Below are positions 6,903 to 53,805 of a DNA stretch of 64,000 bases, in pieces. Origin of the DNA: Bacteroidetes bacterium GWF2_38_335 (GTDB lineage: Bacteria > Bacteroidota > Bacteroidia > Bacteroidales > GWF2-38-335); the NCBI GenBank assembly GCA_001769535.1, contig MEOH01000026.1:248001-312000 (forward strand). The letters run 5' to 3'. The translations under genes were made by a program, and so were the position numbers. The stretch's first letter is position 1; each line of letters opens with the position of its first letter. The notes beneath the pieces were generated by a model that was not told where the DNA came from, did no database searches, and saw only the letters and a list, made by a program, of their open reading frames with translations.

Positions 6903-6909
6903 ATATGTA

Positions 6910-8557: not shown

Positions 8558-8589
8558 GCGATGTGCAAATTAGCAAATGTGATGATGTG

Positions 8590-10749: not shown

Positions 10750-10838
10750 GAACCCGCTGGCTAGCGGGTTCAACAACAATAGCCGTAGGTGAAACCTACG
10801 GTTGTTGTATGGCTATTCCGGAACCCCGAAAGGGGTTC
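10750..10838. repeat. Cluster of three GC-rich hairpins between symporter and phosphorylase
   Basis: Three perfect stems follow each other: GAACCCGCT (10750-10771, 4-base loop), CCGTAGGT (10783-10801, loop GAA) and GAACCCC (10821-10838, loop GAAA). They are joined by CAACAACAA/TTGTTG-type linkers. The 10595-10938 spacer holds no gene that I can support. Confidence 0.7.
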
Positions 10839-10910
10839 AACAATCATAAAAAACAATCATTAATGCCAACCCAAAACCAATATACCCAAAATCATCACGA
10901 AAATCTTTCG

Positions 10911-10918
10911 TAAGTTTG
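10911..10918 (+). promoter_or_regulatory. Candidate -7 promoter element (TAAGTTTG) for the GH130 gene
   Basis: TAnnTTTG match 20 bases before the ATG at 10939. It suggests the phosphorylase can be transcribed independently of the symporter. Confidence 0.45.
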
Positions 10919-10938
10919 CAAAGCCAAATAACATTAAA

Positions 10939-12141: not shown

Positions 12142-12249
12142 TCGGGTACGGAGGCTTTATAAAAATACCTACACATCCTAAAGGAGGCAAGCGTTTCAGC
12201 ATAAGAATAAACGAAGCGCAAAGACAAAACAGATACAATGATTTATCTA

Positions 12250-14910: not shown

Positions 14911-14955
14911 AGAATTAGTTTTTAACAAGACTTATACCGGCACAAAATGGTTGCA

Positions 14956-37915: not shown

Positions 37916-40612
37916 ATGACCAGGCATTTAATTTTTATCGGATTCCTATTAATAACAATAACAGGTTTTTCTCAAAAAACAATTTCAGGCAGAGTGATTG
38001 ATGAGCAGGGCGCTCCGTTAAGCTACGCCACTGTTGCATTGCTTAACCCCTCCGACTCCACCCTCATGTTTTTTGGTATTACCAATACAACAGGGGTTTA
38101 TCAGATCAAAAATGTAAAAAAAGGCAATTATGTGATGCAGTTTTCTTATGTAGGTGCCAAAACATCCACAAAAAACATTACTGTTTCAGATGATTCCCCA
38201 TTAAATTATGGTGATAAGGTAATGCAAAGCCAGATGCTGGGTGAGGTAAAAGTAATAGCTGAATATATTCCAATAACTTTTAATAAGGATACCATTGAAT
38301 ATAATGCAAAGGCATTTGCAGTAAAACCTGATGCCGTTGCTGAAGATCTTTTGAAAAAAATCCCGGGCGTGGAAGTGGATGAATCGGGCAACGTAAAAGC
38401 ACAGGGCGAAGACGTTACAAAAGTATTGGTTGACGGCAAAGAGTTTTTTGGCAAAGATTTGAAAGTCGCCACAAAAAATCTGCCTGCAAATGCAATTGAC
38501 AAGGTTCAGGTTTATGACAAAAAAAGTGAAGATGCCGAGTTTATGGGAACTGATGATGGTGTGCGCGACAGGACAATTAACCTGGTACTTAATGAAAAGT
38601 ATAAAAAGGGGTATTTCGGAAATGTTGAAGCCGGCGGATCACCCAAAACTGGCGGATCATCACAGGAATATTTTAAAACTGAGGGGAAAATCTATCGCTT
38701 TTCATCAAAATCTCAAATTGCTGCATTGGGAATGTATAACAACATCAATGAATTTGGATATTCATCTAAAGGCCATGAAGAATGGGGAAAAACAATCGAT
38801 GGTTTAAACAAAACAGTAGCCGGCGGATTTAATATGTCCTATAACCCCACGTCAAAGAAAAGATATTTCTTAAGTTATTTGGGCAGTTCCATCAAAAAGG
38901 ATATTTTAAGGGAATCATTTAAAAAGAATTTTCTGGCCAACGGTTCATACATTCAGGATTCTGAAAGGGATGAAAACGAGGATGAAATTCCCCATATTGC
39001 CAATTTTGGTGTCAGACATCAGTTTGGAACAAACAGCAAACTTACCCTTGATGGCGACTTTGATTTAAGTTCAACAAACAACATGTCCAATTCCCTGACC
39101 AACACCAGTTTTGAAGACACTACCGTAAATATTTTAGAGAACAACACCCTTACCAACTCAAAATTATCAAATGCCAGTGCCAAAGCGGTTTATATTCAGA
39201 AACTCAAAGAAAAGAAAACACAGCTTAAGTTGAATACTGCTTTTATGTATGATAAAGGGCTTTCTGAACTTGACTGGGAAAATCTTACCACATTTATGAA
39301 TCCAACAAGTTTTGAATTTGTTGAACAATTCCAGGATAACAATACCGAAAAACTGAACTATTCCTTCAGTCCGACCATTGTCCAGGAAATTGCCCCATTA
39401 TGGACCCTTACCGCTGAGGTAAACCTCGGATCAGATAACGAGTCGCTGCAAAGAACCTTTGGCTCCATGGAAGTTATAAATGATACACTGAGTGCAGATT
39501 TTAAAACCAAAAGAAATTTCATGCAACCAGCTATTACCTTTCAAAAGGGAACCGAAAAAGCCCAGCTTAAAATTACTCTGGGCCTGGAACTTGACGCTTT
39601 TGATAAAATCAATACAGGTTATGACAACAGTATTGGCTCAACCATCGAAGAAAATTATTCATTCTTTACTCCGGGTCTGAGCTACGAAAATAATTACAAA
39701 ACGGGAAGAAGAATAAAAATGAAGTATAATTCTGGTGTTAATATGCCCTCGGTAAGCCAATTATTGCCTATTATCAACACCATAGATCCAACATCAATTT
39801 ATAAGGGAAATATTGACCTAAAACCTGAGTATAGCCATAATATCAGCATGATGTGGTCAATATTTGACCAGTTTTCATTTACATCGTTATTCACAAGGAT
39901 TGGGGCAAGTTACACTCAGGACAAAATAAGCTTTTCACAAACAGTATCTGAAAGCTTTTTTCAACAAATTACTCCGGTTAATGTAGATTACAGTCAATCC
40001 CTATTTGGGTTCTTTTATTTTTCGACACCTTTTCGTCCGCTTGGAATAAAAATCAACCTCAGAGGGAGTGAGAATTACACTCAGGGACTTAGTTTCATAA
40101 ATGAAGTAGAGAATATCAATACCAGTTTAGCCCATTCATTAAAAATGAGTATTGAAAACCGCACTAAGAAAAAATGGGATGTTAGTATAGGAGGCGCATT
40201 CAGTATTACCGATTCAAAATTTTCTATCTCTGACAGCATGAATAGCATATACAACAACACCAGTTATTTTGCGGATATTAGATTTACGCCAAACAAAAAA
40301 TGGAGTATCAGTGCCAAAGGCAATGTTGTAAATTACAGTTCAAAAAGTTTCAATGAAGATTTAAGCATTCCGTTAATTGAAAGCGGCATCAGTTATTTTT
40401 TCCTGAAATCAGAAAAAGCTTCGCTGACAATCAAAGGGTATGATCTGCTCAACAAGAGCTCAAATATCAGTCAGGTTACCACAGCCAGCTACATTATGCA
40501 AAGCAATACCAACACCATTGGCAGGTATGTGATGCTGGTATTCAGATTAAAAATAGGCAACGGCGGTGAAGAAGAAGGCGGTCCAAGGCACGGGCCGGGA
40601 TCGGGTTTTTAG
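37916..40612 (+). CDS. Outer-membrane beta-barrel protein (GLPGLI partner)
   Basis: 898 residues. Signal peptide (TRHLIFIGFLLITITGFS), carboxypeptidase-regulatory-like domain (~22-100: TISGRVIDEQGAPLSYATVALL, GNYVMQFSYVGAK), a plug-like part (~115-215: DAVAEDLLKKIPGVEVDESGNVKAQGE, KVLVDGKEFFGKD, DGVRDRTINLVL) and a ~650-residue barrel. It belongs to the same outer-membrane barrel family as the 18865-21285 protein. Gly-rich C-terminus (GGEEEGGPRHGPGSGF), mirroring its GLPGLI neighbour. Co-transcription is likely (62-base gap with a hairpin). Ligand unknown. Confidence 0.88.
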   Translation: MTRHLIFIGFLLITITGFSQKTISGRVIDEQGAPLSYATVALLNPSDSTLMFFGITNTTGVYQIKNVKKGNYVMQFSYVGAKTSTKNITVSDDSPLNYGDKVMQSQMLGEVKVIAEYIPITFNKDTIEYNAKAFAVKPDAVAEDLLKKIPGVEVDESGNVKAQGEDVTKVLVDGKEFFGKDLKVATKNLPANAIDKVQVYDKKSEDAEFMGTDDGVRDRTINLVLNEKYKKGYFGNVEAGGSPKTGGSSQEYFKTEGKIYRFSSKSQIAALGMYNNINEFGYSSKGHEEWGKTIDGLNKTVAGGFNMSYNPTSKKRYFLSYLGSSIKKDILRESFKKNFLANGSYIQDSERDENEDEIPHIANFGVRHQFGTNSKLTLDGDFDLSSTNNMSNSLTNTSFEDTTVNILENNTLTNSKLSNASAKAVYIQKLKEKKTQLKLNTAFMYDKGLSELDWENLTTFMNPTSFEFVEQFQDNNTEKLNYSFSPTIVQEIAPLWTLTAEVNLGSDNESLQRTFGSMEVINDTLSADFKTKRNFMQPAITFQKGTEKAQLKITLGLELDAFDKINTGYDNSIGSTIEENYSFFTPGLSYENNYKTGRRIKMKYNSGVNMPSVSQLLPIINTIDPTSIYKGNIDLKPEYSHNISMMWSIFDQFSFTSLFTRIGASYTQDKISFSQTVSESFFQQITPVNVDYSQSLFGFFYFSTPFRPLGIKINLRGSENYTQGLSFINEVENINTSLAHSLKMSIENRTKKKWDVSIGGAFSITDSKFSISDSMNSIYNNTSYFADIRFTPNKKWSISAKGNVVNYSSKSFNEDLSIPLIESGISYFFLKSEKASLTIKGYDLLNKSSNISQVTTASYIMQSNTNTIGRYVMLVFRLKIGNGGEEEGGPRHGPGSGF

Positions 40613-40676
40613 TAAATTTTCACGTAATAAATGATTAAAAAAGCTTTAAATAACTTTTTTTTCACACCTGTTTTAT

Positions 40677-43115
40677 TTACTTTTTATTGATCATCGCATA
40701 ATCTAAGTAATACAGGATTTTAACTGACAAACTGTTTGTCTGGGGCGAATCAAGCGTATGTGAGAAATTCTTTGACCAGGAACTTTCAATTATCTGACCT
40801 TCAGTTTCAATGGCATTTTTATATACGATTGAGATGGTGCTGCCCGGAGCAAATTGCCATGAATAAATAAAGTCAATGTTAAAAGCATTGTAGCTGTAAT
40901 CATTGATTTCATTGTATACATCATTCGGAGAAATTTCACCGTCTGCCTGCAATGTATAATAATCTTTGTAATTACCTGAATTCCAATAATGCCTGCCCCT
41001 TATCGAAATGCTCATATCATTCTTTATTACATATTTAGCCGATAAAATATTTTCATATACCCGCAGGTTTCTTCCACCATAGATGATATTGCCCAGGCTG
41101 TCAACATTGGCAAACCCGATATCGTAATTATCATTGCTGTATCCGCTGTTTGCAACAATCTGAAATTTATTATTGACACGGTACAATGCATAAACGCCAA
41201 AATTAATATTGCCCCCGCTGTATTTTTCAATAAAATTACCATAACTCATGTTGAAATTGATATAAAGCTGTTTTCTCGAATCTGAACCCAAATTGGTATA
41301 AAAAGCGTATTTTTTATAAACTCTTGAGTAATAACCGGCAACCCGTGGCTCATAATAATCATATGCCTTAAAAGGATTTATGATTGTACCAATACTAAAA
41401 GTTGAATAGTTTTTCAAAACTAAAGTACAGTCATAATTGATCTGACTGAATACCGATTTTGTTGTTTCAGGATTTGTCAGATAATCAAATGTGAATGAAT
41501 TATATGATTCCCTGAAATACTTTTTTGGGATGAATGTATTGTACAAAAGGTAAACCCGCTCCTTCTGCTTGTTACCAATAACCTGATAGCCCATATCGCT
41601 GGGGTCAAAAGTCTTTCCGACATAGGTATGAGAATATCCGAACTGAAAATTGCCTGATGCTTTTCGTACCCCGATAAAATATTTTGTTCCCAGCTGATTT
41701 CCAAAATAGTTTTCAGCTGTTGTATCGGCCATATATTGCTGGCTTAATGAAATACTCCCGTCGGTAGCCCATTTATTTTTTTTGTCCATGAACGTAAAAC
41801 CCGACCCGGTAACATTGGCATCATTGTATTTTTTATCACGCAACACATTGGTGTTGATGAAATAAACTGAGGAGTTATTTTTCAATGCCTGATCAAAAAC
41901 AACCATATTGTAGTTCGTCAATGGCTCGGTGAGTATCTTCCTGTCGTTTCCCTCAGCATCTTCAACAATTGCATACATATTATCGGTGATTGCATTAAAG
42001 ACGCCAATACCCAGACCATTGTTATTTCTGCCCGACAGCTTTATTGCATTCAGTAGTTTTGAAACAGACGGGTTTTTCTTTATTTTTTCTCCCTCGCTTA
42101 TCATGTAAGGCAAATAATAATATCCACCGGGAGTTTGCCCGATTCTTCTGGAATAAAAAAGAACATCTTTTTCAAAAAGTTCGGTTCCTTCTTTGAAAAA
42201 CGGACGGTTTTCATTGAAAACAACTTCGGTATAGCTCAGGTTTTTTACCTTGTTATCTGATTGGGTCTGGCTAAAATCAGGCAAAAGTGTAAGGTCCATC
42301 GTGTATTTTTCATTGATTCCGTACTTTAAATCGGCGCCGAAATTATAGGAATTTGAATTCTGGTAGCTGGTGCTGTTGTCGATATTGGCAACGGGTTCGC
42401 TGTTATAGAAAAAATTTGCAAAGGGAGTTACCGATAATCTGAGCGGGGGTTTAATATCCTTAAATCCAGCAATTCTTCCCCATTGTGTGCGGGTATTAGC
42501 CAAGGTTCTTTCGGTAAGTGCCCATTGTATATATTCCTGATTACGGGTAATGGTTCTGATGACCTGGAATCCCCACTCCTGCTCCGGCACTGAAGGAAAG
42601 CGCAAAGCTGAATATGGAATTTTCATTTCGGCAATCCAACCGTTTTCCACAATTTTAACCTTGCTTTGCCATACGGCATCGAATGTGGGATCAGAATCTT
42701 TATAATCCATCTGTACACCCGAAGCTGTCAGACCAAAAACATAAGCATCAAAGGTGTTATAGGTATCAAAACCTATGTAAAATTTGTCGGCAACAATGCT
42801 TTGGTCATCACGTGATCCGGCCATGCGAAAAATGCTGTCTGCAGAAGGCTCATAAATATATGCTGCCACATAAATGGCATTGTTGTCGTAAACAATCCAT
42901 ACTTCGGTTTTTTGTGTGGGGACTGTGTTAAATGCAGGTTCGCGCTGTATAAAATCACTGCACACAGAAACTTTTTTCCATGCACCATCATTTAAAATCC
43001 CGTCAATAACCGGCGGTTCGGCAACCCTGACTGTTGTGTATTTTTTGAGATAGTTTTGTGACAACCCAACTAAGTTAAGTATTATAAAAACAGATAGTAT
43101 AACGGCTCTTTTCAT
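40677..43115 (-). CDS. DUF5916 outer-membrane protein with CBM9-like N-terminal domain
   Basis: 812 residues. Signal peptide (KRAVILSVFIILNLVGLS). A carbohydrate-binding family 9-like domain (~28-215) shows PPVIDGILNDGAWKKVSVCSDF, KTEVWIVYDNNAIYVAAYIYEP and WIAEMKIPYSALRFP. The DUF5916 region follows with TMDLTLLPDFSQTQSDNKVKNLSYTEVVFNENRPFFKEG (~270-310), a typical motif, then an aromatic beta-barrel to the C-terminus. Predicted outer membrane; function unknown, perhaps binding or passing an oligosaccharide or peptide. A 15-base palindrome at 43164-43178 lies 49 bases upstream of the start. Intact. Confidence 0.87.
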   Translation of the reverse strand: MKRAVILSVFIILNLVGLSQNYLKKYTTVRVAEPPVIDGILNDGAWKKVSVCSDFIQREPAFNTVPTQKTEVWIVYDNNAIYVAAYIYEPSADSIFRMAGSRDDQSIVADKFYIGFDTYNTFDAYVFGLTASGVQMDYKDSDPTFDAVWQSKVKIVENGWIAEMKIPYSALRFPSVPEQEWGFQVIRTITRNQEYIQWALTERTLANTRTQWGRIAGFKDIKPPLRLSVTPFANFFYNSEPVANIDNSTSYQNSNSYNFGADLKYGINEKYTMDLTLLPDFSQTQSDNKVKNLSYTEVVFNENRPFFKEGTELFEKDVLFYSRRIGQTPGGYYYLPYMISEGEKIKKNPSVSKLLNAIKLSGRNNNGLGIGVFNAITDNMYAIVEDAEGNDRKILTEPLTNYNMVVFDQALKNNSSVYFINTNVLRDKKYNDANVTGSGFTFMDKKNKWATDGSISLSQQYMADTTAENYFGNQLGTKYFIGVRKASGNFQFGYSHTYVGKTFDPSDMGYQVIGNKQKERVYLLYNTFIPKKYFRESYNSFTFDYLTNPETTKSVFSQINYDCTLVLKNYSTFSIGTIINPFKAYDYYEPRVAGYYSRVYKKYAFYTNLGSDSRKQLYINFNMSYGNFIEKYSGGNINFGVYALYRVNNKFQIVANSGYSNDNYDIGFANVDSLGNIIYGGRNLRVYENILSAKYVIKNDMSISIRGRHYWNSGNYKDYYTLQADGEISPNDVYNEINDYSYNAFNIDFIYSWQFAPGSTISIVYKNAIETEGQIIESSWSKNFSHTLDSPQTNSLSVKILYYLDYAMINKK

Positions 43116-43163
43116 GATTTAAAGATTAAGGGATTTGACAATGAAAATACCAAATAGCAAAAA

Positions 43164-43178
43164 CCTGACCTGGTCAGG
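43164..43178. promoter_or_regulatory. Operator-like palindrome upstream of the DUF5916 gene
   Basis: CCTGACC-T-GGTCAGG is perfectly symmetric over seven bases each side of one central base, 49 bases before the DUF5916 ATG. Candidate -7 matches on the minus strand lie further out (43271-43278 TATATTTG; 43368-43375 TAAATTTG), so the palindrome would be in the leader. Function is inferred only from its symmetry. Confidence 0.35.
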
Positions 43179-43596
43179 CCGGGATTGTTAAGTGCGTTTA
43201 AAGTTTCAGCAGATATTAACCGGCAGTAAGTAGCCACAGGAATAATATCCATTTTTTGAAGCTTTATAAACAAATATACGGTACAGGAAAATTACTTGTT
43301 TATTTCCGTATGAAAAATGTACGGTTTTGATACAGTATTTAAACTTCGGTTATTTTATATTGATAAACAAATTTAGATTTCGGGTTTTTTTCCAAAATTA
43401 CACAATTACTTGTTCGATTGTTTCATTTTCATGCCACCCAATAATCGGACAATCGAACTATCAATTTTAATACCTGTTTGCCTATAAGAATAGCAGCAAA
43501 TCAACTAAAATAGTTGATTGATAAATATTAATTATCTTTTATTGTATTAAAAAATGGTGCTGAGTTATATTTTTTACTGCCTTGGAAAAAGCAAAC
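43179..43596. other. AT-rich spacer with one 10-bp inverted repeat
   Basis: Contains GTTCGATTGT (43412-43421) and its perfect complement (43449-43458) around 27 bases, downstream of the CHAT gene and upstream of the DUF5916 gene. No gene seen. Confidence 0.6.
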
Positions 43597-45759
43597 TCAT
43601 TCAATCAACACAAAAGCTCCCCAAAAGTATGGGTCATATTTTTGTCCCATTGCTTTCTGAGTTTCGGTAAAAGCAGCACGAATATCCTTAGTTTTTAAAA
43701 CCCTGTCATAAAAATCAGTCATAAATTCCTCCGTTTCCTTATCGGGAACCTGCCACAGACTCATAATGATAAACCTCACTCCTGCCATTTTAAAAGCCCG
43801 TTGCAATCCAAATACTCCTTCGCTGCCCTGAATATCTCCCAAACCAGTCTCACAGGCTGATAATGCAACCAATGCAGTGTTACTCATATTCAGTTGTGAT
43901 ACTTCAAAGGCAGTCATAATTCCTTCATCTGCAGTGTCATTAACCATTGAAGCATTGATATTGTTTGCTCCGGCAAAAATCAACCCGGACCGTTTCATTG
44001 GATCGGCATTGTTAATGAAAAAAGACGCAGCTGAAATATCTGATCCTCTGAATTTTATATCACCATACTCCACCAGTTGTTCTTGTGATGACCCATCGCC
44101 GTTTGCCATTTCTTCCTGCATCAATTTAATGGCAGGATCGGGAAAGAAAAAGCCATGAGTGGCCAGATGCAGAATTGATGGACCGCCTCCCTTTTGTGCA
44201 AATATATTTTTAAAAGCTTTTTCTGTGGCTACATCACCCGAAAAGCCCTTTGCCTTAATACTGCTTTTCTTAAATTGGTTAAGAATTATATTCATTTCAG
44301 ATAAGGTACCCGGAAGATAATTCCATCCCCCTTCCCCAGAGGCCTCAATATTTTCAGGGAAATTGAAATTTATTCCTCCAAAAACGGCAGCAGTTAATTT
44401 TTTCCCGGGTTCAAAGGGTAAACTATTAATAAGCTTTCCGGTAGTGCTCATTTGAATTAATTTATACCGATCACATAATAGTCCGTTTCCTTTACCTATA
44501 GAAGCAAATGATATGTTGTTTAAAATTCCGGATGGCGTGAAATAAATTGTCTGAATATTTGAAAGATAAGATTCAAAAGGCAGCCATATTATATTGTACA
44601 GCAACTCATTGACATTGTTTTTAGAGCCATAAATCCGTTGGATTTGATTTATATTGTTTTCATTTTTACCAATTATTTCATTTAAATCCTGTTCCATGAA
44701 AAGCTTAATGGTAATTGGCTCCTTGCAATCCGGGGTAATCAGGAAGGCTACATAATAAATCTGATTTTTATTGTCGTTTAAAAAATAATGGGAAAATTCA
44801 ATGGCGGCCTCTCCTTTTTTCAATTGTTTCTGTACATCTTTCCATGTAACATTAAAAATGCTTTGGATATCAGCATATTGGATGCACAAATTTGCCAGTT
44901 TATGCTCAATTTCGGTGGACTGCATTTCGAGTGTTTTGGCTCCCTCGGTATTTCCTGTGCCTTGAGCTTCAGAGAAAAGTCTCCTGATTTGTTTTAATCT
45001 TTCGTATGTATTCAGCAAGACTGTATCGCTGCTGTTTCGGATCACATCAGCCATTGCTTTTGAACTTTTCAACATCAGTCCCTTAAAAATAAGCTCATTG
45101 TCATAACATAACTGAGAAAGACTGTCAATTTCGTTAGCATATTTGGAGTTAAATCCGTTCATCTGCATAAAAACACTTCTAAACAACTCCATGTGCTCTT
45201 CTTTTTCGCTTTCACCAAGGAAAGCAAAGCTGTTTCGGAATTCGTTGAGAAAAAGTTCCCTTGATTTGGTGTAAGCCCTGAAGGATTTTTCTTTGTTACC
45301 AGCCAAAAAACTTGTATGGGCAAGTTTAAAATATTCATAAGGCATGTCAGAAATATAATTAAGCCGGATAAATCCCTGAATAGACTCTTCATGGCAGGCA
45401 ATTGCTTTTTCATATTGACCCTGATAATAATAAATTATTCCCATGTTTGCCAGGCATGATAGAACCTGTACATCATTTTTATTTTTTCTCCCAATCTCTG
45501 CAGCACTTTCAAAATATTTTACCGCATCTTCAAATTTTTCCTGTCCTACACAACATGAACCAAGACCGATAAAGCAATTTGATTCAAGATCTGCATTGTT
45601 TAATTCACGGGCAAGATCAAGAGCAGGTAAATAATAATTTTGAGCTTCTTCAAATTTCCCATTAAAATAGCAAATCCTTCCCATGTTAGTCAGGTCGGCA
45701 CACAAATCATTTTTATTTCCGGCAAGTTTACTTATTCTGAGAGCTTCTTCATAATACAA
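43597..45759 (-). CDS. TPR-CHAT protein, main (catalytic) part downstream of an in-frame stop
   Basis: 720 codons counted from a TTG; reading through the upstream TAA joins it in the same frame to the exported 224-residue part. Residues ~1-165 are 40-residue TPR units (YYEEALRIS, NGKFEEAQNYY, QEKFEDAVKYF, QGQYEKAIA). A helical linker follows, then a CHAT (caspase HetF-associated) peptidase domain at ~390-720. His535 (HLATHGFFF) and Cys636 (ALSACETGLGDIQGSEG) form the expected dyad, with the conserved VRFIIMSLWQVPD and end YDPYFWGAFVLIE. The dyad is complete, so the catalytic half is not decayed. If translation restarts, the product would lack a signal peptide. Probably an extracytoplasmic protease in its full form. 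Confidence 0.88.
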   Translation of the reverse strand: MYYEEALRISKLAGNKNDLCADLTNMGRICYFNGKFEEAQNYYLPALDLARELNNADLESNCFIGLGSCCVGQEKFEDAVKYFESAAEIGRKNKNDVQVLSCLANMGIIYYYQGQYEKAIACHEESIQGFIRLNYISDMPYEYFKLAHTSFLAGNKEKSFRAYTKSRELFLNEFRNSFAFLGESEKEEHMELFRSVFMQMNGFNSKYANEIDSLSQLCYDNELIFKGLMLKSSKAMADVIRNSSDTVLLNTYERLKQIRRLFSEAQGTGNTEGAKTLEMQSTEIEHKLANLCIQYADIQSIFNVTWKDVQKQLKKGEAAIEFSHYFLNDNKNQIYYVAFLITPDCKEPITIKLFMEQDLNEIIGKNENNINQIQRIYGSKNNVNELLYNIIWLPFESYLSNIQTIYFTPSGILNNISFASIGKGNGLLCDRYKLIQMSTTGKLINSLPFEPGKKLTAAVFGGINFNFPENIEASGEGGWNYLPGTLSEMNIILNQFKKSSIKAKGFSGDVATEKAFKNIFAQKGGGPSILHLATHGFFFPDPAIKLMQEEMANGDGSSQEQLVEYGDIKFRGSDISAASFFINNADPMKRSGLIFAGANNINASMVNDTADEGIMTAFEVSQLNMSNTALVALSACETGLGDIQGSEGVFGLQRAFKMAGVRFIIMSLWQVPDKETEEFMTDFYDRVLKTKDIRAAFTETQKAMGQKYDPYFWGAFVLIE

Positions 45760-45780
45760 CTGTGCCTTTGCATTAGCTCT

Positions 45781-46455
45781 TTAAATTGAATACGCTTCGC
45801 CCAAAACAATGCACGTGCTTCTGATTTGCAGATTGTTTTTCTGTTCCTTTGAGATTTCCATTGATCTCTCATAATAAGTGATTGCCTCGGGATAATCACC
45901 TTTTATAATATATTTTTTACCTAAACTAATCAGGCTTTTAGATTCATTTTCCTTTAAATTAAATTGTTTTGAATAATCTGCAGCAATAATTAAATTTTCA
46001 ATGGCTTTATCAAGATTTCCCATTTCACCCCATGTATTGCCGATATTCAAGAGGTTGCGGGCAACAATTTCGTGGCTGTTAATAAATTGAGCCATTTTTC
46101 GGGAAAGCTCATAATACCTAAGTGCAGATGTGTAATTTTTTATATTTTTATTGTAGTTACCTAAAGTTTTCAGGGCATCCGATTTAATTCTGTATAGTGA
46201 TTTGTTTTTTAGAGAATCTTCAAGTATATAAACAGTGTCGGACAGGTTGGATAAGTAGAAAAGCATTAACTCGGTATCCCTTGTTTCATAGTATTTACTC
46301 AGTTCCAGGTGAATTTTATAGCTTATGGTATCCGATGATTTTCCGCTAATAGGAGGTGCTGCAGAAAGCAGGTTTTTCAAGGAATCGACATTATTCTGAG
46401 ACCTTGCAGAAAAAAGAATTACAAAAAACACACCTGAAAACAATAGAATTTTCAT
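45781..46455 (-). CDS. TPR-CHAT protein, N-terminal signal peptide and TPR part, ended by in-frame TAA
   Basis: 224 residues: a signal peptide (KILLFSGVFFVILFSARS), then TPR units with a strict 40-residue period (YYELSRKM, then NLIIAADY, then YYERSMEI). TAA at 45783-45781 (codon 225) stops it in mid-repeat. The next codons in the SAME frame (RANAKAQLYYEEALRIS) continue the repeat with the spacing kept at 40. So this is the N-terminus of one ~952-residue TPR-CHAT gene broken by a single nonsense codon, not a separate gene. Starts 70 bases after the TPR-SpoIIE gene. A sequencing error or strain mutation is equally possible. Confidence 0.85.
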   Translation of the reverse strand: MKILLFSGVFFVILFSARSQNNVDSLKNLLSAAPPISGKSSDTISYKIHLELSKYYETRDTELMLFYLSNLSDTVYILEDSLKNKSLYRIKSDALKTLGNYNKNIKNYTSALRYYELSRKMAQFINSHEIVARNLLNIGNTWGEMGNLDKAIENLIIAADYSKQFNLKENESKSLISLGKKYIIKGDYPEAITYYERSMEISKEQKNNLQIRSTCIVLGEAYSI

Positions 46456-46525
46456 GATATAAACAGGTTAATACCTTGCGAAAGTAGTGAAATAAACCGA
46501 CCTCAGAAAATATAAAAACAATAGC

Positions 46526-48550
46526 TTAAATCCTGATTCCCGCTACACAAACATCATCAACCTGAGTGATGTTGCCTTTCCATTCGCTAAATGTTTTTAA
46601 AATGATTTCCTTTTGTTTTTCCATTTCATGATCTTTAACCGAAATCAAAAGTTCCTTAAAACGTATTGATTTGAATTTTTTGCCGGAATCACCGCCAAAT
46701 TGGTCGGCAAAACCATCGGTAAACATATAAAGGATATCACCTGTTTCAAGTTTTAAATTGTTTGACAAGAATGGCACCCGGTTAGGATGCATGCCAACGG
46801 GCTGTTTGCTCGGACGAATCTCTTCTATTTCAGAACTTCCGTTTCTAATAATCCAGAGTGCATTGTTAGCGCCCGACCATTGAAGTGTTTTCAAATCGGG
46901 ATTAAAGACACACAGACTGGCATCCATACCATCTTTAACTTCATTTTCACCCTTTTTGAAGTTATCAACAACCATATCAGCAACATGATCAAGTACTTTT
47001 CCGGATTCAAAAATTTCCATTTCCTTAAAAGCCCTGTTAAGAAAGTCACAGCACATAACACTAACCATTGCTCCCGGCACACCATGTCCGGTGCAATCGC
47101 AAACTGCAAAACCAATTTTGTTTTCCACCTGGTTAAACCAATAAAAATCACCAGCAACAATATCCTTTGGAAGGTAAATTATAAATAAGTCAGGAATTTG
47201 CTTTTTGATATATGAAACAGGAGGTAAAATAGCTTCCTGAATATGTTTAGCGTACTGAATACTATCCGTAATATGCCTGTTTTTCTCCTCAATGATTTGA
47301 TTTTTAAGCTCTAAAGCTTCAGCTGTTTTCTTTTTCATTCGGTACCTTGACCAGATAAACAAAACCAGTGCAATAAACAAGAGTAATAAAGATATCCCGA
47401 TATAAATGAAATCCTGTTTTCTTCGTGCTTCAAATTCCTGTTCTTTTTCAAGAAGTGTTATTTTTTGTTTTTGCTTATCAGATTCATATCCGGCTTCAAG
47501 TTCAGCTATCTTTTTCAAAGCATTTTCATTGGATATCTCATCAACAACTTCTATATACCTGTTTTGAATAATAAAGGCACTGTCATAAAACCCTGAAGAA
47601 GCCAGAATCTTTGAATATTCAAGGGCTGCCATTCCAATTTCCTTTTTGGCACCGACTGTACTTGAAACAAGATAAGCCTTTCTAAAATAATACAGCGCCG
47701 AATCTTTTTGATTCATGCTTTTAAAATTCGATCCGATGTTGATCAGTGTCAAGGCCAATCCCTGCCTGTCGCCCAGTTCTTCTTTGATGAGCATAGATTC
47801 CCTGAATAATTTGACAGCTTCATTATTTTTTCCGGTATTCAAATATGCAATTCCAAGGTTATCAAGTGAAGAAGACATTACGTAGAGATCCTGATTTTTC
47901 CTGCCTGCTTCGAGAGACATGCTTGCGTATTTTATTGCTTCTTCGAAAGCTTCCATTTTAACAAAAAGCTCACCCATATAGGTATAGCTATCTCCTTTTG
48001 TTATTGCATCGCCACTTTCCAGGGCTTTTTTGAAATAATCAAGTGCTCTTGAATAGTTTCCCTGATACATTTGAATCAGACCCAAACCATTCAAACAATT
48101 TGATTTTCCGGTATTATCTTTAATTTTTTCATATAAGGACATGCCTTGAGCCAGATAATCAATAGCTGCACCGTATTTTCCCATTAAAATATATATATCA
48201 CCAATATAGAAAAACACATCGGCTTTCCCTTTTTTGTAATCAATCCGGGTAGCCTCAACAAGCGCGTTTTCAAGAAAAAAAAGTGCTTTTTCGTATTCAT
48301 CCATATAATATGATGATTTTCCGGCATCGTTCAGTGCATTTACATATTGTTCTGTCCCCCGCTCAGAAATATTTATTTCTTCAAGGGCAACCTTAAGTGC
48401 ATCTTCGGGATTGTTTAGCACAAGATCTTCGACCACCATGTGCAGCGAATCGGGCTTGCTTAACTTTTTATTCTGTGGTATTTCAGAATGAGCCTGACAA
48501 ACAAACAGAACTACACAAACAATGTTTATTAAAATCTGATTAACTTTCAT
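46526..48550 (-). CDS. TPR sensor - transmembrane - SpoIIE (PP2C-type) phosphatase
   Basis: 674 residues: signal peptide (KVNQILINIVCVVLFVCQA), about seven TPR units (~70-330), a coiled coil (~340-378), one TM helix (381-400, FIYIGISLLLLFIALVLFIW), a second coiled coil (~405-430), and a SpoIIE phosphatase domain (~435-674). Metal-binding acidic residues are present: Asp468 in VAGDFYWF, Asp485 in CDCTGHGVPGAM, Asp612 in MFTDGFADQFGG and Asp665/666 in QVDDVCVA. Topology places the TPRs in the periplasm and the phosphatase in the cytoplasm. Such enzymes usually dephosphorylate anti-sigma-factor antagonists; no STAS or anti-sigma gene is adjacent. Operon with the TPR-CHAT gene. Confidence 0.92.
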   Translation of the reverse strand: MKVNQILINIVCVVLFVCQAHSEIPQNKKLSKPDSLHMVVEDLVLNNPEDALKVALEEINISERGTEQYVNALNDAGKSSYYMDEYEKALFFLENALVEATRIDYKKGKADVFFYIGDIYILMGKYGAAIDYLAQGMSLYEKIKDNTGKSNCLNGLGLIQMYQGNYSRALDYFKKALESGDAITKGDSYTYMGELFVKMEAFEEAIKYASMSLEAGRKNQDLYVMSSSLDNLGIAYLNTGKNNEAVKLFRESMLIKEELGDRQGLALTLINIGSNFKSMNQKDSALYYFRKAYLVSSTVGAKKEIGMAALEYSKILASSGFYDSAFIIQNRYIEVVDEISNENALKKIAELEAGYESDKQKQKITLLEKEQEFEARRKQDFIYIGISLLLLFIALVLFIWSRYRMKKKTAEALELKNQIIEEKNRHITDSIQYAKHIQEAILPPVSYIKKQIPDLFIIYLPKDIVAGDFYWFNQVENKIGFAVCDCTGHGVPGAMVSVMCCDFLNRAFKEMEIFESGKVLDHVADMVVDNFKKGENEVKDGMDASLCVFNPDLKTLQWSGANNALWIIRNGSSEIEEIRPSKQPVGMHPNRVPFLSNNLKLETGDILYMFTDGFADQFGGDSGKKFKSIRFKELLISVKDHEMEKQKEIILKTFSEWKGNITQVDDVCVAGIRI

Positions 48551-48579
48551 TTTATAAATCTGATTTTCAGGTTATGGAA

Positions 48580-48587
48580 CAAAGATA
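48580..48587 (-). promoter_or_regulatory. Promoter -7 element (TATCTTTG) for the TPR-SpoIIE / TPR-CHAT operon
   Basis: TAnnTTTG in its preferred TAtcTTTG form on the minus strand, 29 bases before the ATG at 48550. No match was seen in the 70-base gap before the CHAT gene, supporting a single transcript. Confidence 0.55.
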
Positions 48588-48808
48588 GAAAAATAGTATT
48601 AAGATGAAAGTCGAATAGAAAAAAAACATGAATCGGAATTATACAATTCAAAAATAAACGATAATTATTTGAAGTAATTTTAAGGGATGTTAATTAAAAG
48701 TAGCTTATACTATCATTTTTACTGTTTAAAAAGATGTATTTTATTGTGAAGTATTTAGTATTTTTACGCCTTAATAAATTTTAGAAAAAATAAGTAAAAA
48801 AAATTGCA

Positions 48809-49798
48809 ATGTCAAAAATTGAAGTTTTGAATCTGATAGGAAATACACCAATGGTGCATTTAAAAACACTTGATCCCAAACCTGGTGTAGAGATACATGC
48901 AAAACTCGAGTTTATGAATCCGACGGGAAGTATAAAAGACCGGATTATTGCATATATGGTTCAGAAAGGTATTGAAGCAGGATATATCAAAAAAGACACA
49001 ACCCTTGTTGAGGGGAGTTCAGGTAACACAGGCGCATCTGTTGCCATGATTGCTTCGTGTATGGGACTAAAATCAATTCTATTTGTTCCTGATAAATGCA
49101 GTGATGAAAAAGTCGCAATAATAAGATCTTATGGCGCCGAAGTAGTCGTAAAACCAGCTTCTGCTCCTTCCACTTCTGATGAAGAATATGGAAATGCTGC
49201 CGCAAAAAAAGCAAGAGAAAATGCAAGCTTTTATCATATTAACCAATACAACAGTCAATTAAATCCCGAAGCCCATTACATGACAATTGGCAAAGAGATA
49301 TGGAATGACATGGATGGTAAAATCGATGTATTTGTAGCTACGGCATCTACAGGTGGAACTATATCCGGAATTGCAAGACGATTAAAAGAAAATAACCCGA
49401 AAATAAAAATTGTATTGGCTGATCCTGAAGGATCTGTTTACAAACCTTATTTTGACGGTAAAGAAGATTATCTGTCATACAAAAAGTCATTTAAAGTTGA
49501 GGGAGCCGGAAAGGGTGCCCTTGTTGAAGCTATGAATTTTGGCATCGTGGATGAAGCCATATCATTTAATGATGAGAATGCCATAGGCATGGTACTTCGG
49601 CTGGCCCGCCAGGAAGGCCTGATGGTTGGTGGTTCAAGCGGAGGTAATGTTTGGGCTGCTTTAGAAATTGCAAAGAGAATGGAAGGCCCTGCTAAAATAG
49701 TAACTGTAATGCCTGACAGCGGTTTTAAATATCTGAGCAAAATCTTTAATCCCACATGGCTAAAGGAAGTTGGTCTGGGACATCTTATTGCTGAATAA
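48809..49798 (+). CDS. Cysteine synthase / cystathionine beta-synthase-like PLP enzyme
   Basis: 329-residue fold-type II PLP enzyme. Seen: NLIGNTPMVHLK (9-19), the Schiff-base lysine in SIKDR (Lys43), phosphate/substrate loop EGSSGNTGAS (68-77), TASTGGTISGIARRLKE near 178-194 and GLMVGGSSGGNVWAA near 270-285. The C-terminus reads MPDSGFKYLSKIFN, which is closer to bacterial cystathionine beta-synthase/CysM-like members than to CysK. It probably forms cysteine from O-acetylserine or a related substrate, in the cytoplasm. Divergent from the TPR-SpoIIE operon and alone in its unit. Exact reaction not decidable. Confidence 0.9.
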   Translation: MSKIEVLNLIGNTPMVHLKTLDPKPGVEIHAKLEFMNPTGSIKDRIIAYMVQKGIEAGYIKKDTTLVEGSSGNTGASVAMIASCMGLKSILFVPDKCSDEKVAIIRSYGAEVVVKPASAPSTSDEEYGNAAAKKARENASFYHINQYNSQLNPEAHYMTIGKEIWNDMDGKIDVFVATASTGGTISGIARRLKENNPKIKIVLADPEGSVYKPYFDGKEDYLSYKKSFKVEGAGKGALVEAMNFGIVDEAISFNDENAIGMVLRLARQEGLMVGGSSGGNVWAALEIAKRMEGPAKIVTVMPDSGFKYLSKIFNPTWLKEVGLGHLIAE

Positions 49799-49925
49799 AA
49801 CAGTGTTTTGCTGATATTTGAGCAGACTCTCAAACAATCACACATGGAAGGGATGATCAAAAATAGACTGGCGGGTTGAAGCCGTCTGTATTACCTGATC
49901 CTTTTGTAGTAAACCACGAATTTTA

Positions 49926-50762
49926 TCAGTCTATTATAACCAATTTCTCGGTTGCAAATAAAATACCGTTTTGTGTAAGTTGAATGAAATACAATCCACC
50001 GGGTAATTTATCGCGTTGAATTGACACAGACTGTCCGGAAATATTACTGATTTGTTTAATCACCTGTCCTGATGAATTATAAAGCGTAACCTCGGCATTT
50101 TTCAATACCTGATTTGATTGCAGTATTGTTTCAACGGAAAAAGGATTAGGGTAAATTGTTATGGCCTGATTGTTATATATTTCTCCCATGCCATTTATAA
50201 ACATTATCTGAACATTATCAATAAAATTCCATCCTCTCCTTTCTCCTTTATTTCCAAATGTTATATACTGTCCGCTAAGCGGAGCAATAAAGTCAAAAGC
50301 AGTCTCGGTCCATCCGGTCTGGACAACAGGCTGCACCGAATAAATCTGTATTCCAAAACTTATTTCTTCATCAGAAACACCGATTAACAAACTGTCATAA
50401 ACAGTGAAATTTGTGTCCGCTTTTTGAGAAAAGGTAAGATGGTATCCGTTACCAGCAATCAGCGGCGAGCTTAGTTTTAAAGCAACCTGATCGGGAGATC
50501 CAATATTCGAAGCAAGAGAAATAAACCATTCACCTTTGGCCGGAATTGCATATCCGCAAGTACCTTTCTGTATATCGACTTCTTCGCCGGGACCAAATGC
50601 AAAGCAGTCACTCATCAATGAGTTAAATGTACTATTCGGATTATTCCATAAGCAATCTGTTGCCAGGTTGTCTTCAAAACTACCGTTTATAACAGTTTGC
50701 GAATATGCTTTTGTACTGATAATTACAGTTACAATCAATAATGCCAAAATACCTGTTTTCAT
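49926..50762 (-). CDS. Secreted T9SS cargo protein (jelly-roll domain)
   Basis: 278 residues: signal peptide (KTGILALLIVTVIISTKAYS), then a beta-rich domain opening TVINGSFEDNLATDCLWNN and containing YAIPAKGEWFISLAS and FIAPLSGQYITFGNKGERRGWNFIDNVQI, which resembles a galactose-binding/jelly-roll fold. The last ~75 residues are a type A T9SS sorting domain (ITIYPNPFSVETILQ ... GGLYFIQLTQNGILFATEKLVIID). Surface-exposed or released; ligand unknown. Its ATG is 26 bases after the preceding lipoprotein stop, so it is the last gene of a three-gene leftward cluster. Confidence 0.86.
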   Translation of the reverse strand: MKTGILALLIVTVIISTKAYSQTVINGSFEDNLATDCLWNNPNSTFNSLMSDCFAFGPGEEVDIQKGTCGYAIPAKGEWFISLASNIGSPDQVALKLSSPLIAGNGYHLTFSQKADTNFTVYDSLLIGVSDEEISFGIQIYSVQPVVQTGWTETAFDFIAPLSGQYITFGNKGERRGWNFIDNVQIMFINGMGEIYNNQAITIYPNPFSVETILQSNQVLKNAEVTLYNSSGQVIKQISNISGQSVSIQRDKLPGGLYFIQLTQNGILFATEKLVIID

Positions 50763-50788
50763 ACTTTTTATTATTAGAACGGTTGGTG

Positions 50789-51367
50789 TTATTTCAAGCG
50801 AAAGGTACTCATAATTTTCTCTCCGACAATAATATAGCTGTCAAACTTGTCAAGTTCACACATTAGTTGCAACCCGCATGCCGAATCACCTTTTAAGAAA
50901 ATATACTGAACAACTTTCAAACTATTTTTTTCTTCAATGCTTGTAAATGTCAGATTGTGACCCTGCATGCCATTTAAACTCAGTTTTTCATTTGCGATCA
51001 GCTCCCTGTTTTCGACTTTTTCAATTTCCTTAATGGATACCGCAATGTATTCATCGAATGATTTACCTTTTAAATCATCAAACATTAATAAAATATTTTC
51101 AGGATTTTTATCCCCCCTGTTTTCAAAAAGCACAAAAGAAGTTCCATCTTTTCCGGTTGTATCAATCTCCCAGTTCCCGGGATATTCAATCGAATAATCG
51201 TCAGTTTCAAAAATCAGCCACTTGCCAGAATCAGCTGAGCTTTTCATTTGGCCATTCAATGAATCCCTGCTATTGTCTGTATTTTTTTCTTTATCGGTGG
51301 CCGGCTGGTTACAGGCTATAAAACCAATAAACAATAAGCTTAAGTTTAAAAATTTTATTGTTTTCAT
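50789..51367 (-). CDS. Lipoprotein of unknown function (PsbP/DUF1795-like fold possible)
   Basis: 192 residues. Lipoprotein signal KTIKFLNLSLLFIGFIAC with a GFIAC lipobox, then a low-complexity polar linker (NQPATDKEKNTDNSRDSLN). The domain that follows (~50-192) reads DDYSIEYPGNWEIDT, then ISKEIEK-like helices and a C-terminal MSTFRLK. The YSIEYPGNWE phrase is typical of PsbP-like/DUF1795 proteins, but I cannot assign a function. Middle gene of a three-gene cluster (38 bases after the upstream lipoprotein, 26 before the T9SS gene). Probably anchored to an envelope membrane. Confidence 0.78.
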   Translation of the reverse strand: MKTIKFLNLSLLFIGFIACNQPATDKEKNTDNSRDSLNGQMKSSADSGKWLIFETDDYSIEYPGNWEIDTTGKDGTSFVLFENRGDKNPENILLMFDDLKGKSFDEYIAVSIKEIEKVENRELIANEKLSLNGMQGHNLTFTSIEEKNSLKVVQYIFLKGDSACGLQLMCELDKFDSYIIVGEKIMSTFRLK

Positions 51368-51405
51368 ATTAGGTTTGTAATTATCATTGAGCGGATATAA
51401 TTTTT

Positions 51406-51900
51406 TTATTTAGTCTGTTTGCTAAAATAATACAATGTATCAGATGGAAAATCAAATTCTTTTTGCTCCCCTGAGCCCCAACACCCGCTTCCATACTCTC
51501 TGTATTCCTGAGTTGTGTCGCAATAAACAAAAAGACATAGAGTTGAAGTAACCGGGGCATACAAGTCAACATAGTAATTATTGCAAGCATGTACCATTCC
51601 TGTGCATTCAAAGTTTCCGAATTGATCAAAATCAATACATATTTCAGTTGGAATCCCAAGTCCGTTATTTATATATGTCAATTTTTGACCTTTAACCTTT
51701 CCTTTTATATAAAAATTTACAAAAGCAAAGGTATCCACATCGGTATTAATATTCACGGTAGTAAACCACGAAACAGAATCAATAGTGAGATTTAAATCGT
51801 TTTGTGTACATTTAATCATTATTGGTTCTACCTTATCACAAGAAGCAAAGGCAAATACTAAAAGTAAAATAGCAGTATATATTTTCAATATTTTTTTCAC
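51406..51900 (-). CDS. Small lipoprotein of unknown function
   Basis: 164 residues. Signal peptide KKILKIYTAILLLVFAFASC with lipobox FASC. The mature part is beta-rich with several cysteines (IMIKCTQND, EICIDFDQFGNFECTGMVHACNNYYVDLYAPVTSTLCLFVYCD), which might form disulphides. No family recognised. It is the first gene of the three-gene cluster ending at 49926 and has a good -7 element 72 bases upstream. The function is not proposed. Confidence 0.72.
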   Translation of the reverse strand: MKKILKIYTAILLLVFAFASCDKVEPIMIKCTQNDLNLTIDSVSWFTTVNINTDVDTFAFVNFYIKGKVKGQKLTYINNGLGIPTEICIDFDQFGNFECTGMVHACNNYYVDLYAPVTSTLCLFVYCDTTQEYREYGSGCWGSGEQKEFDFPSDTLYYFSKQTK

Positions 51901-51972
51901 AGATAAAATTTAGGTGCTTTAACAATTTATAACTCTCTAATATTTTGCAACTTCAATTTGAATATTTCCTTT

Positions 51973-51980
51973 CAAAGATA
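51973..51980 (-). promoter_or_regulatory. Promoter -7 element (TATCTTTG) for the three-gene exported-protein cluster
   Basis: TAnnTTTG in its preferred form on the minus strand, 72 bases before the ATG at 51900. Confidence 0.5.
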
Positions 51981-52165
51981 AATGTTTTTCAGGTAGAAGT
52001 CAATAAATATTCCGGTGTATTTAAATTGCAAGTCACTTTTTATTAATTGACAGACAGTTGATTTTGTATCAAAATTCACCTATGCAAGGCATGAACTCTT
52101 CAAATATGCCGGCTGACTGTTAAATAAGTCATGGTTATACTGTGATGCTTTTTATATTCTTATGA

Positions 52166-52801
52166 TCAGCCGGTAAGCTTTTTACATTTCACTAAAATAC
52201 ATTTCAAAGGAGGTTCATTTTTCATGTGTTTTATCGGCTCGTCAACCTCTGTGATTTCGAATAAACCAAAATGCTCAAACTCACTTTTAGCCGAATCTTT
52301 GTCATAAAAAAACACCCTCACTCCTTTCCTTAATTCATATCGGTCGCTGCTCAGATATTTTCCCGTTCGGTACATTGATGCTTTCTTTGAGACTGCGGTA
52401 AATATCATATGTCCGCCTGGGCTGAGCTGATTATAACAATCGCTTATAAATTTTTTCCTTTCGCGGTTGTTTAACAGGTGAATCAGGGCATAACAAAATA
52501 TTCCGTCATATTTTTTATTATCAAAGGGCATGTTGATCACTGAACCATGGTGGATTTTAATATCCAGTCCGTTTTCCTGTTTAGCCAGATCTATAGCAGT
52601 TTTGGAAATCTCAATACCAGTGAGGCGGAATCCGTTTTCCATGAAAATTTTTGCATTTCTCCCGTACCCGATGCCCGGAATTAATATTTCCTTTGCTTTG
52701 GCAGCAAGAAAGAAGTCTTTAGCCATTATTGCCGAGTCCGATGGTTCAAAGCCCCACATCGTTTGCATTTCCTTAAAACTCGATTCCCAAAATTCGGTCA
52801 T
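52166..52801 (-). CDS. Class I SAM-dependent methyltransferase
   Basis: 211-residue cytoplasmic protein with the seven-stranded methyltransferase core: motif I IPGIGYGRNAKIFMENGF near 37-54, acidic strand 2 LTGIEIS near 56-62, motif III/post-I IHHGSVINMPFDNKKYDGIFCYALIHLL near 82-109, and LSPGGHMIFTAVSK near 125-138. Motif I reads IPGIGYGRN rather than DLGCGxG, a form seen in tellurite-resistance or thiopurine-type methyltransferases. Substrate not identifiable. It stands alone between repeat-rich spacers. Intact. Confidence 0.85.
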   Translation of the reverse strand: MTEFWESSFKEMQTMWGFEPSDSAIMAKDFFLAAKAKEILIPGIGYGRNAKIFMENGFRLTGIEISKTAIDLAKQENGLDIKIHHGSVINMPFDNKKYDGIFCYALIHLLNNRERKKFISDCYNQLSPGGHMIFTAVSKKASMYRTGKYLSSDRYELRKGVRVFFYDKDSAKSEFEHFGLFEITEVDEPIKHMKNEPPLKCILVKCKKLTG

Positions 52802-53227
52802 TGTTTGTCATTTTAATATTCTGCTGACTTACCGCGTGTCGGTTTTTTTGGCTTAAAACCCGCATAAGCATCCGCCGGTAGTAAAGTTAATTAAATGCAG
52901 TGAGCTTTCAAAATCGATGGTTGCAAAAAAACGCGCTTTTACCTGCCGTTTTTTTCACTCTGTAATGAACTACCCCGTTGCAAGCAAACGGGGTATCAAC
53001 TTAGTATTTATTACATATCCGCCCCAAGGGGCGAGGAACCGAGTTTACGAGCTTCGCAAACGCTGAAGCTTAATGCGAAAGTGTTCGGCGAAGCCAATAA
53101 AACCTTAGAGATCCCTCGGCTTTCCTCGGGATCCCTGCCTGCACTGCCGTTTCGGCTGGCAAGAGTTCGACTAAATAATTTCAGTTCACTATCGTTCCTG
53201 AAATTATAGTCTCACTGATTTAATTTA
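52802..53227. repeat. Palindrome-rich spacer, no gene seen
   Basis: Contains a 9-bp stem TACCCCGTT/AACGGGGTA (52971-52995), the perfect hairpin CGCCCCAAGGGGCG (53020-53033), a TTCGCA/TGCGAA pairing (53053-53089) and a GATCCC/GGGATC hairpin (53110-53133) resembling the 21541 fragment. Unlike the AT-rich surroundings it is locally GC-rich. A composite of dispersed elements is the simplest reading. Confidence 0.7.
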
Positions 53228-53776
53228 CTAATATTTCCCAAAGCCAATTCGAATCTTTTTTATAGTTCCGTAACTATAGTAAAATGTCAGCAAACTGAAA
53301 TACTTCTTTTCTCTAAAGTCATAGGACATTGTCAACTCATCATTGATTTTGAGAAAAGATTTAGGTTTTCCATATTTTTTAACAACAAAAGTCGAATCCA
53401 AGTTTGATATTGATTCTCCATTTAGAGTAATTGATGAGCCATTAAATATTTCAATATGTGGCTTTGTAGTTTTCTTTGTCAGGGTGTCAGGGCTGGAATA
53501 ATAAAAACCAACAACAAATAGATTATTATCATAAAATAATTCATTATAAGCTAAGCTTTTAGAATTTTCAGGATCAAAGGAATATGTTGAGTCCGGGGCA
53601 CCAATTGCCGCTATAAGCTTTCCATAGGAATATTTGCAATTTACCTCTCCAATACCTTTAGATAAATTAATATTTTGAGAATAACCGTAGTTTGTGCAAA
53701 TGAAAAAGCAAAGTATGCTCATCAGTTGTTTTATTACTCTTAAATTGTCTTTTATTCTTTCAACTTGTTTATTCAT
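53228..53776 (-). CDS. Exported protein of unknown function
   Basis: 182 residues. The start at 53776 is kept because it supplies a basic n-region (QVERIKDNLRVIK) for the hydrophobic stretch LMSILCFFICTNYGYS; a second ATG at 53722 lacks charge. The mature protein is beta-rich with YGKLIAAIGAPDSTYSF and VVKKYGKPKSFLKINDE, two GxPxxxY/GKPK-like turns that suggest a duplicated small fold, perhaps SmpA/BamE-like, but this is weak. 29 bases downstream of the T9SS protein at 53806-54711, so probably co-transcribed. Unknown function. Confidence 0.65.
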   Translation of the reverse strand: MNKQVERIKDNLRVIKQLMSILCFFICTNYGYSQNINLSKGIGEVNCKYSYGKLIAAIGAPDSTYSFDPENSKSLAYNELFYDNNLFVVGFYYSSPDTLTKKTTKPHIEIFNGSSITLNGESISNLDSTFVVKKYGKPKSFLKINDELTMSYDFREKKYFSLLTFYYSYGTIKKIRIGFGKY

Positions 53777-53805
53777 GACGTTTTGTTCAATAAGAAGACA
53801 GCCAG

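Follow-up and report, generated by a model that had tools for sequence, protein, structure and literature searches.

An intact sensor-phosphatase gene beside an interrupted TPR-CHAT gene, and a recurring sm/propeller-SpoIIE/TPR-CHAT gene neighbourhood in Bacteroidales

Two neighbouring genes are described here from a 64,000-nucleotide stretch of the draft genome of Bacteroidetes bacterium GWF2_38_335 (order Bacteroidales; contig MEOH01000026.1, positions 248,001 to 312,000; hereafter the window), the first coding for a SpoIIE-type phosphatase with TPR repeats and one transmembrane (TM) helix and the second for a TPR protein with a caspase-like CHAT protease domain. An earlier note, made from the sequence of the window, had read them as one operon and one trans-envelope signalling unit; its observations were confirmed in part and its interpretation is partly supported. 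The phosphatase gene is intact, the TPR-CHAT gene is interrupted by an in-frame stop codon, and, judging from two genomes, conservation of this exact pairing does not extend across the genus. Within the order, a gene neighbourhood of another form, composed of an exported protein of about 270 aa (named sm here), a propeller-type SpoIIE protein and a TPR-CHAT protein, is found beyond chance. On balance it is probable that the window holds an intact sensor-phosphatase gene with a SiaA-like output, that the TPR-CHAT gene behind it has recently been broken or was mis-sequenced, and that this pair is one decayed case of a wider tendency, the conserved form of which would be sm together with a propeller-TM-SpoIIE protein and an exported TPR-CHAT protein. 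The window pair is of modest interest and the three-gene module is the better lead. Our own handles for genomes (G), contigs (C) and loci (L) are used where needed, G000 being the source genome.

The window locus

In the protein product of the first gene, Pfam detects TPR_12 in three stretches and a SpoIIE domain (whole-protein E 2.3e-22), with 80.3 bits for PF07228 against a curated cut-off of 25. In the hydropathy plot the N-terminus is hydrophobic and a single strong TM-like segment starts at residue 381, so that every part of the architecture previously given for this gene was seen. Five conserved positions of the SpoIIE domain, said in the earlier note to be an intact set of metal ligands, are all kept in the window row of the alignment, with Asp in VCDCTGHG, DGMD, FTDG and QVDD agreeing in 46-49 of the 52 rows; we take these Asp positions to be the metal ligands of the SpoIIE/PPM domain. 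The TPR regions of both genes would lie in the periplasm, judging from hydropathy.

The second gene had been described as a single signal peptide-TPR-CHAT gene, which is true of its domain but not of its continuity. The CHAT domain is clear and carries His535 and Cys636, which we take to be the catalytic dyad and which, with the domain match, place the piece in PF12770, but an in-frame TAA splits the gene, and the frame is therefore not continuously translatable. The whole frame (46455-43597) comprises 953 codons, and the TAA, located within a TPR unit as judged by eye, is its sole internal stop; third-position G+C is even across it (0.33 in both pieces). When the CHAT piece was aligned to 13 relatives (26-45% identity), the His and Cys columns were both invariant, and across a broader alignment of 253 CHAT rows, some duplicates and fragments included, His is present in 243 of the 246 rows and Cys in all 242 rows having a residue at the respective column, in agreement with the earlier claim of a conserved dyad. 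Neither piece has a TM-like segment by hydropathy apart from the signal peptide. A survey of the window and six other stretches of the same genome (17-20 kb each) for stops with at least 130 open codons on both flanks returned seven, of which this TAA alone interrupts a single domain array; the remaining six resemble gene boundaries or an antisense frame (all by eye). Since third-position G+C is even, the catalytic codons are present and no other internal stop occurs, the break is considered either recent or an assembly error. Other CHAT genes were seen with an apparent split (L123, contig C31 of G027) or an in-frame TAA (G070:C470:3167-4222), and such broken copies may not be exceptional.

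Upstream of the phosphatase gene, TATCTTTG fits TAnnTTTG, which we take to be the Bacteroidota -7 element. The gap between the two genes contains no exact TANNTTTG (TAnnTTTG), though another promoter may lie there; the element named in the earlier note is thus present, but a single promoter for both genes is not established by the empty gap. PADLOC returned generic TPR models only for the window proteins. Coordinates are given in Table 1.

Table 1 Features of the SpoIIE and TPR-CHAT locus, in window positions
Feature	Position	Strand	Basis
Sequence TATCTTTG, fits -7 element TAnnTTTG	48580..48587	(-)	Consensus match only
TPR-TM-SpoIIE (SiaA-like PPM) phosphatase gene, intact, 674 aa	46526..48550	(-)	Pfam, NCBIfam, PDB matches
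Single predicted TM helix, residues 381-399	47354..47410	(-)	Kyte-Doolittle hydropathy 3.01
SpoIIE domain, residues 477-673	46532..47122	(-)	Pfam and conserved Asp positions
Gap between SpoIIE and TPR-CHAT genes, 70 bp	46456..46525	(-)	List of open reading frames (ORFs)
Signal peptide and TPR piece, 224 aa, terminated by in-frame TAA	45781..46455	(-)	ORFs, Pfam, hydropathy
In-frame TAA interrupting the TPR-CHAT gene	45781..45783	(-)	ORF list, translation
TPR and CHAT piece, same frame, 720-aa ORF from TTG 45759, without own signal peptide	43597..45780	(-)	ORFs, Pfam, hydropathy
CHAT domain, residues 385-719 of the piece	43603..44607	(-)	Pfam E 1.6e-47
Predicted catalytic His, His535 of the piece	44155..44157	(-)	Alignment
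Predicted catalytic Cys, Cys636 of the piece	43852..43854	(-)	Alignment

Conservation of the pair and adjacency of SpoIIE and CHAT genes

The source genome is a 5.27-Mb draft with nine CHAT genes and 43 SpoIIE matches, which correspond to about 41 genes and tend to cluster together according to match positions. Its congener G001 possesses a clear orthologue of the window SpoIIE protein (60% identity over residues 21-674), the downstream neighbour of which is a GNAT-like gene on the opposite strand (by eye), with no CHAT gene within the 18.5 kb read; the lone CHAT match of G001 is situated on a separate contig (4.1 kb) without SpoIIE. The conserved pairing expected in the earlier note is contradicted by this orthologue, which rules out the exact pair as a conserved operon, and by the broken state of the window CHAT gene. 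As the window CHAT is one of nine copies and the congener's SpoIIE orthologue does without CHAT, the pair is not an ancient two-gene system. In a tree of CHAT sequences, the nearest tips of the window CHAT are CHATs of the three-gene module in G390 and two CHATs of contig C9 of the source genome, both lacking SpoIIE in the 20 kb read.

Adjacency was counted for 123 CHAT ORFs from 45 genomes (207 neighbour slots) in regions of our choosing, namely all nine CHATs of the source genome, most other CHAT matches and SpoIIE-rich genomes among the matches listed; gene calling followed a simple longest-ORF rule, SpoIIE calls were preliminary candidates and split CHAT pieces were counted separately. Six immediate SpoIIE neighbours were observed, at five CHAT genes, where the density of SpoIIE genes would predict 1.8 (Poisson 0.011). 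Two of the six belong to a single module locus (L289), without which there are four adjacencies (L100, L114, L115, L276) against 1.8, which is not significant (Poisson 0.11). By these ORF calls, 118 of the 123 CHAT genes have no immediate SpoIIE neighbour, the window included, which was counted as non-adjacent because the broken ORF separates SpoIIE from CHAT.

Tandem TPR-SpoIIE and TPR-CHAT genes do occur elsewhere. On contig C19 of the source genome, 12 bp separate the SpoIIE stop from the CHAT start codon, and locus L172 (JAGXRQ010000063.1, 1-10454), from a metagenome-assembled genome labelled Bacteroidetes, carries two alternating SpoIIE and CHAT pairs on one strand with short gaps. A survey of named genomes, with flanks of up to 8 kb per side, many of them ending at contig ends, showed SpoIIE in the flanks of 5 of the 79 loci (L172, L175, L176, L183, L184).

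A recurring neighbourhood of sm, SpoIIE and CHAT genes

Reading of neighbourhoods revealed a recurring trio consisting of sm, a propeller-type SpoIIE protein of about 1,090 aa and a TPR-CHAT protein. In the module SpoIIE proteins checked with Pfam, Y_Y_Y was found in all three, a weak Reg_prop propeller match in two and TPR in none; the remaining propeller-SpoIIE proteins were assigned with a purpose-built profile. TPR-TPR contact between protease and phosphatase, the link favoured in the earlier note, was accordingly dropped as a general rule, since these three proteins have Y_Y_Y/propeller-type ectodomains. The broader suggestion of a trans-envelope CHAT-phosphatase link fared better, as an exported TPR-CHAT protein tied to a TM SpoIIE protein does recur within the order, but in a different form and with a third gene.

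No match to sm was obtained at E<=0.01 in Pfam (0 of 2 sequences tried), NCBIfam (0 of 2) or PADLOC (0 of 1), and its profile found nothing in the PDB below E 0.59. An AlphaFold model computed with three sequences is weak (pLDDT 63.9, pTM 0.50) and gave one Foldseek match at E<=0.001, the rest being weak, low-TM-score and largely immunoglobulin-like, from which sm is probably beta-rich.

The sm profile (A2) was run against 393 genomes of the order and gave 46 matches in 40 genomes; 42 of the neighbourhoods were read, the four weakest fragments being left out, and were divided into 24 core and 18 distant loci by a cut at E<=4.2e-48, fixed after the match list had been viewed. Among the core loci, a propeller-type SpoIIE gene directly adjoins sm in 15 of 24, any detected SpoIIE domain in 16 of 24, and a CHAT gene lies within four genes in 11 of 24; at least four core loci (G260, G324, G191, G369) are on contigs of 4-6 kb, where partners are not visible. 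Once the five discovery genomes are set aside, the counts become 11, 12 and 6 of 19, respectively. With a generous per-locus chance of 0.064 (20 CHAT genes among 2,500, eight slots), the six CHAT neighbours correspond to a binomial probability of 9e-4, several of the 19 loci sharing genera or families and so not being fully independent. Within the order, the sm-SpoIIE-CHAT neighbourhood is thus beyond chance. Of the distant matches, one in 18 has SpoIIE adjoining and CHAT near; SpoIIE and CHAT neighbours are almost absent from this distant sm-like branch (L322-L337, L339), 17 of the 18 stretches containing no CHAT.

The gene order varies, being CHAT-CHAT-sm-SpoIIE in G390 and G138 (also in G375, with one extra ORF between the CHATs), sm-SpoIIE-CHAT in G343 and G167 and sm-CHAT in G019 and G228. 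Module genes frequently have abutting or overlapping stop-to-stop frames, the true start codons being somewhat further in. At 13 module loci, a hydrophobic N-terminus is found in 14 of 16 CHAT frames, 12 of 13 sm frames (the remaining one is truncated at the edge of the region) and all 12 propeller-SpoIIE frames, each of the latter also having a TM-like segment.

The source genome has its own copy of the module on contig C19 (L099), with sm and SpoIIE, one opposite-strand gene and then TPR-CHAT; its single sm match is located there and not at the window. The window locus is not a member of the module, as its SpoIIE protein bears TPR and has no Y_Y_Y or Reg_prop match, and no sm is present. Loci L099 and L100 together (C19, about 97-125 kb) hold sm, a propeller-SpoIIE gene, a TPR-SpoIIE gene and three TPR-CHAT genes in about 28 kb, along with a WD40-like gene whose C-terminus looks caspase-like by eye.

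On the CHAT tree, the 18 module-labelled tips out of 231 require 12 changes, compared with a mean of 17.6 and a minimum of 14 in shuffles; L171, L174 and L175, which are apparent repeats of the G047, G191 and G138 contigs, and L321, L340 and L341 were not included in the tree. Given that module CHATs come from many branches, CHAT looks like a recurrent and exchangeable component rather than a fixed part.

Known systems and rival explanations

The window SpoIIE domain gave one PDB match at E<=0.001, entry 6k4e, 'Putative serine phosphatase' (E 1.4e-28), which we take to be the PPM domain of SiaA. NCBIfam likewise gives SiaA as its best match (NF038263, an equivalog model), with 167 bits over the C-terminal part only against a cut-off of 700, so the protein can be said to work like SiaA but not to be SiaA. 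The source genome encodes three SiaC genes scoring over their cut-off, each directly behind an ORF that is SiaB-like by eye, not by curated model, and that is presumably SiaB. Because the domain resembles SiaA and three SiaC genes are present, partner switching of the SiaC type is the likely output. Locus L184, with CHAT, SiaB-like, SiaC-like and SpoIIE genes next to one another, also points this way. RsbU/SpoIIE partner switching for sigma factors involves the same Pfam family (PF07228), the closest models here being those of SiaA. To our knowledge, the SiaABCD operon contains neither CHAT nor sm, and inspection by eye of the ORFs surrounding the window SpoIIE gene showed no siaBC gene. In P. 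aeruginosa, SiaA and SiaB balance SiaC phosphorylation through a partner switch, as stated in the excerpted text of PMC7647112. The likeness to SiaABCD of Pseudomonas aeruginosa lies in a membrane phosphatase with an extracytoplasmic part, a PPM domain and siaBC-type genes in the genome (PMC7647112, same excerpt), while the ectodomain is TPR in the window and Y_Y_Y/propeller in the module.

For the CHAT piece, the PDB sequence search returned matches over the TPR part only (residues 2-167) and no CHAT structure. Csx29, the TPR-CHAT protein of Craspase, is encoded beside gRAMP (Cas7-11) and CRISPR; no gRAMP/CRISPR-type ORF was noticed by eye at 38000-54000, where no model-based search was made. 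A TPR array and a caspase-like CHAT protease domain are common to Craspase, in the portion of PMC9729208 consulted, and the window-type CHAT, the latter differing in having a signal peptide and adjoining phosphatase genes. HetF of heterocyst-forming cyanobacteria is a putative protease with a regulatory role, the function of which is lost upon active-site mutation, and a domain legend names CHAT, TM and TPR (PMC8406250, excerpt); unlike HetF, the window CHAT pieces show no TM-like segment apart from the signal peptide. Among the matches listed, the open literature gave no description of a SpoIIE-CHAT pairing, most subscription journals being outside its scope.

In the general chain proposed here, an envelope signal would act on a TPR or propeller ectodomain, the ectodomain on the SpoIIE phosphatase and the phosphatase on SiaC. 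Most likely the exported TPR domain of the window protein reads an envelope signal and relays it through the one TM helix, whereupon the cytoplasmic PPM domain would dephosphorylate a SiaC-like protein that is phosphorylated by a SiaB-like kinase. In the module, the exported CHAT protease and sm would stand on the input side, the protease probably processing sm or the sensor ectodomain and so setting the phosphatase output. It is tentatively suggested that the order has an undescribed trans-envelope module in which CHAT and sm feed a propeller- or TPR-sensor SpoIIE protein controlling SiaB/SiaC, with the window as a TPR-type variant whose protease is broken. If the module works in this way, CHAT proteases would have a place in envelope-to-cytoplasm signalling, beyond CRISPR and cyanobacterial development, and a testable input would be available for SpoIIE-domain phosphatases, of which the source genome alone has about 41 genes. 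The window pair, for its part, serves as a caution that a suggestive two-gene neighbourhood may be broken and not conserved.

Several observations weigh against an intact phosphatase gene and a decayed instance of this tendency as the account of the window. The TAA could be explained by an assembly error, as it is seen in assembled sequence only, and with G390 module CHATs among its nearest tips the window CHAT is not clearly outside the module lineages. Module membership of CHAT is loose, and both sm genes of G001 lack SpoIIE and CHAT genes in their vicinity. SiaB and SiaC genes stand beside CHAT and SpoIIE in L184 only, where CHAT, SiaB-like and SiaC-like genes lie side by side (6813-15278) with an opposite-strand SpoIIE gene matching the propeller profile; one further CHAT region, L129, holds a lone SiaC-like gene. 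The module does not hold outside the order: a search of 395 genomes drawn from the class gave 11 sm-bearing genomes outside it, with neighbourhoods judged from match positions only, and at the five core-scoring matches (G529, G660, G578, G741, G727) no CHAT was found on the contig. G529 and G660 have no SpoIIE anywhere in the genome and G578 none on the sm contig, G727 has SpoIIE about 1.6 kb from sm on the opposite strand, and G741, the sole such case among the five, has a SpoIIE frame (1,056 aa) that lies on the strand of sm and apparently adjoins it. Among the six weaker genomes, G708 alone has a CHAT match near, itself weak (E 5.7e-10) and separated by about 3.7 kb from an sm match that is also weak, and CHAT occurs somewhere in 9 of the 11 genomes.

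A rival account is plain chance, with both families expanded and SpoIIE and CHAT genes meeting by accident or in signalling clusters with no functional link. The many copies of both in one genome, the clustering of SpoIIE genes with one another, the large majority of CHAT genes lacking an immediate SpoIIE neighbour and the absence of CHAT from the five core-scoring sm contigs beyond the order all suit it, but the CHAT neighbours at the 19 non-discovery loci are too frequent for it, even with some loci from the same families, and module reading frames often abut or overlap; we hold chance to be rather unlikely. A working trans-envelope unit as in the earlier note, with the TAA an assembly error and the exported TPR-CHAT protein acting on the TPR ectodomain of the phosphatase, is improbable. 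It would agree with the otherwise open frame, the invariant catalytic columns, the tandem pairs on C19 and in L172 and the proximity of the window CHAT to CHATs of the G390 module and of C9, but the congener keeps its SpoIIE orthologue without CHAT, the adjacency excess loses significance without L289 and the C9 CHATs have no SpoIIE in the 20 kb read around them. The two pieces might also be made separately, giving a TPR protein that is exported and a TPR-CHAT protease that stays in the cytoplasm, in the compartment of the phosphatase domain; both are long and open with like third-position G+C, but the TAA interrupts a TPR unit and the longest ORF behind it begins with TTG, which makes this very improbable indeed. 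The reading retained is that of an intact sensor-phosphatase gene with a TPR-CHAT gene behind it that is broken or mis-sequenced.

Among CHAT frames longer than 700 aa, 190 of 221 have a hydrophobic N-terminus and 28 of 221 another TM-like segment. On contig C22 of the source genome, two clustered SpoIIE genes (L024 and L025, at 193939 and 198404) have phosphatase domains that are near-identical over the first 60 residues and probably represent a recent duplication.

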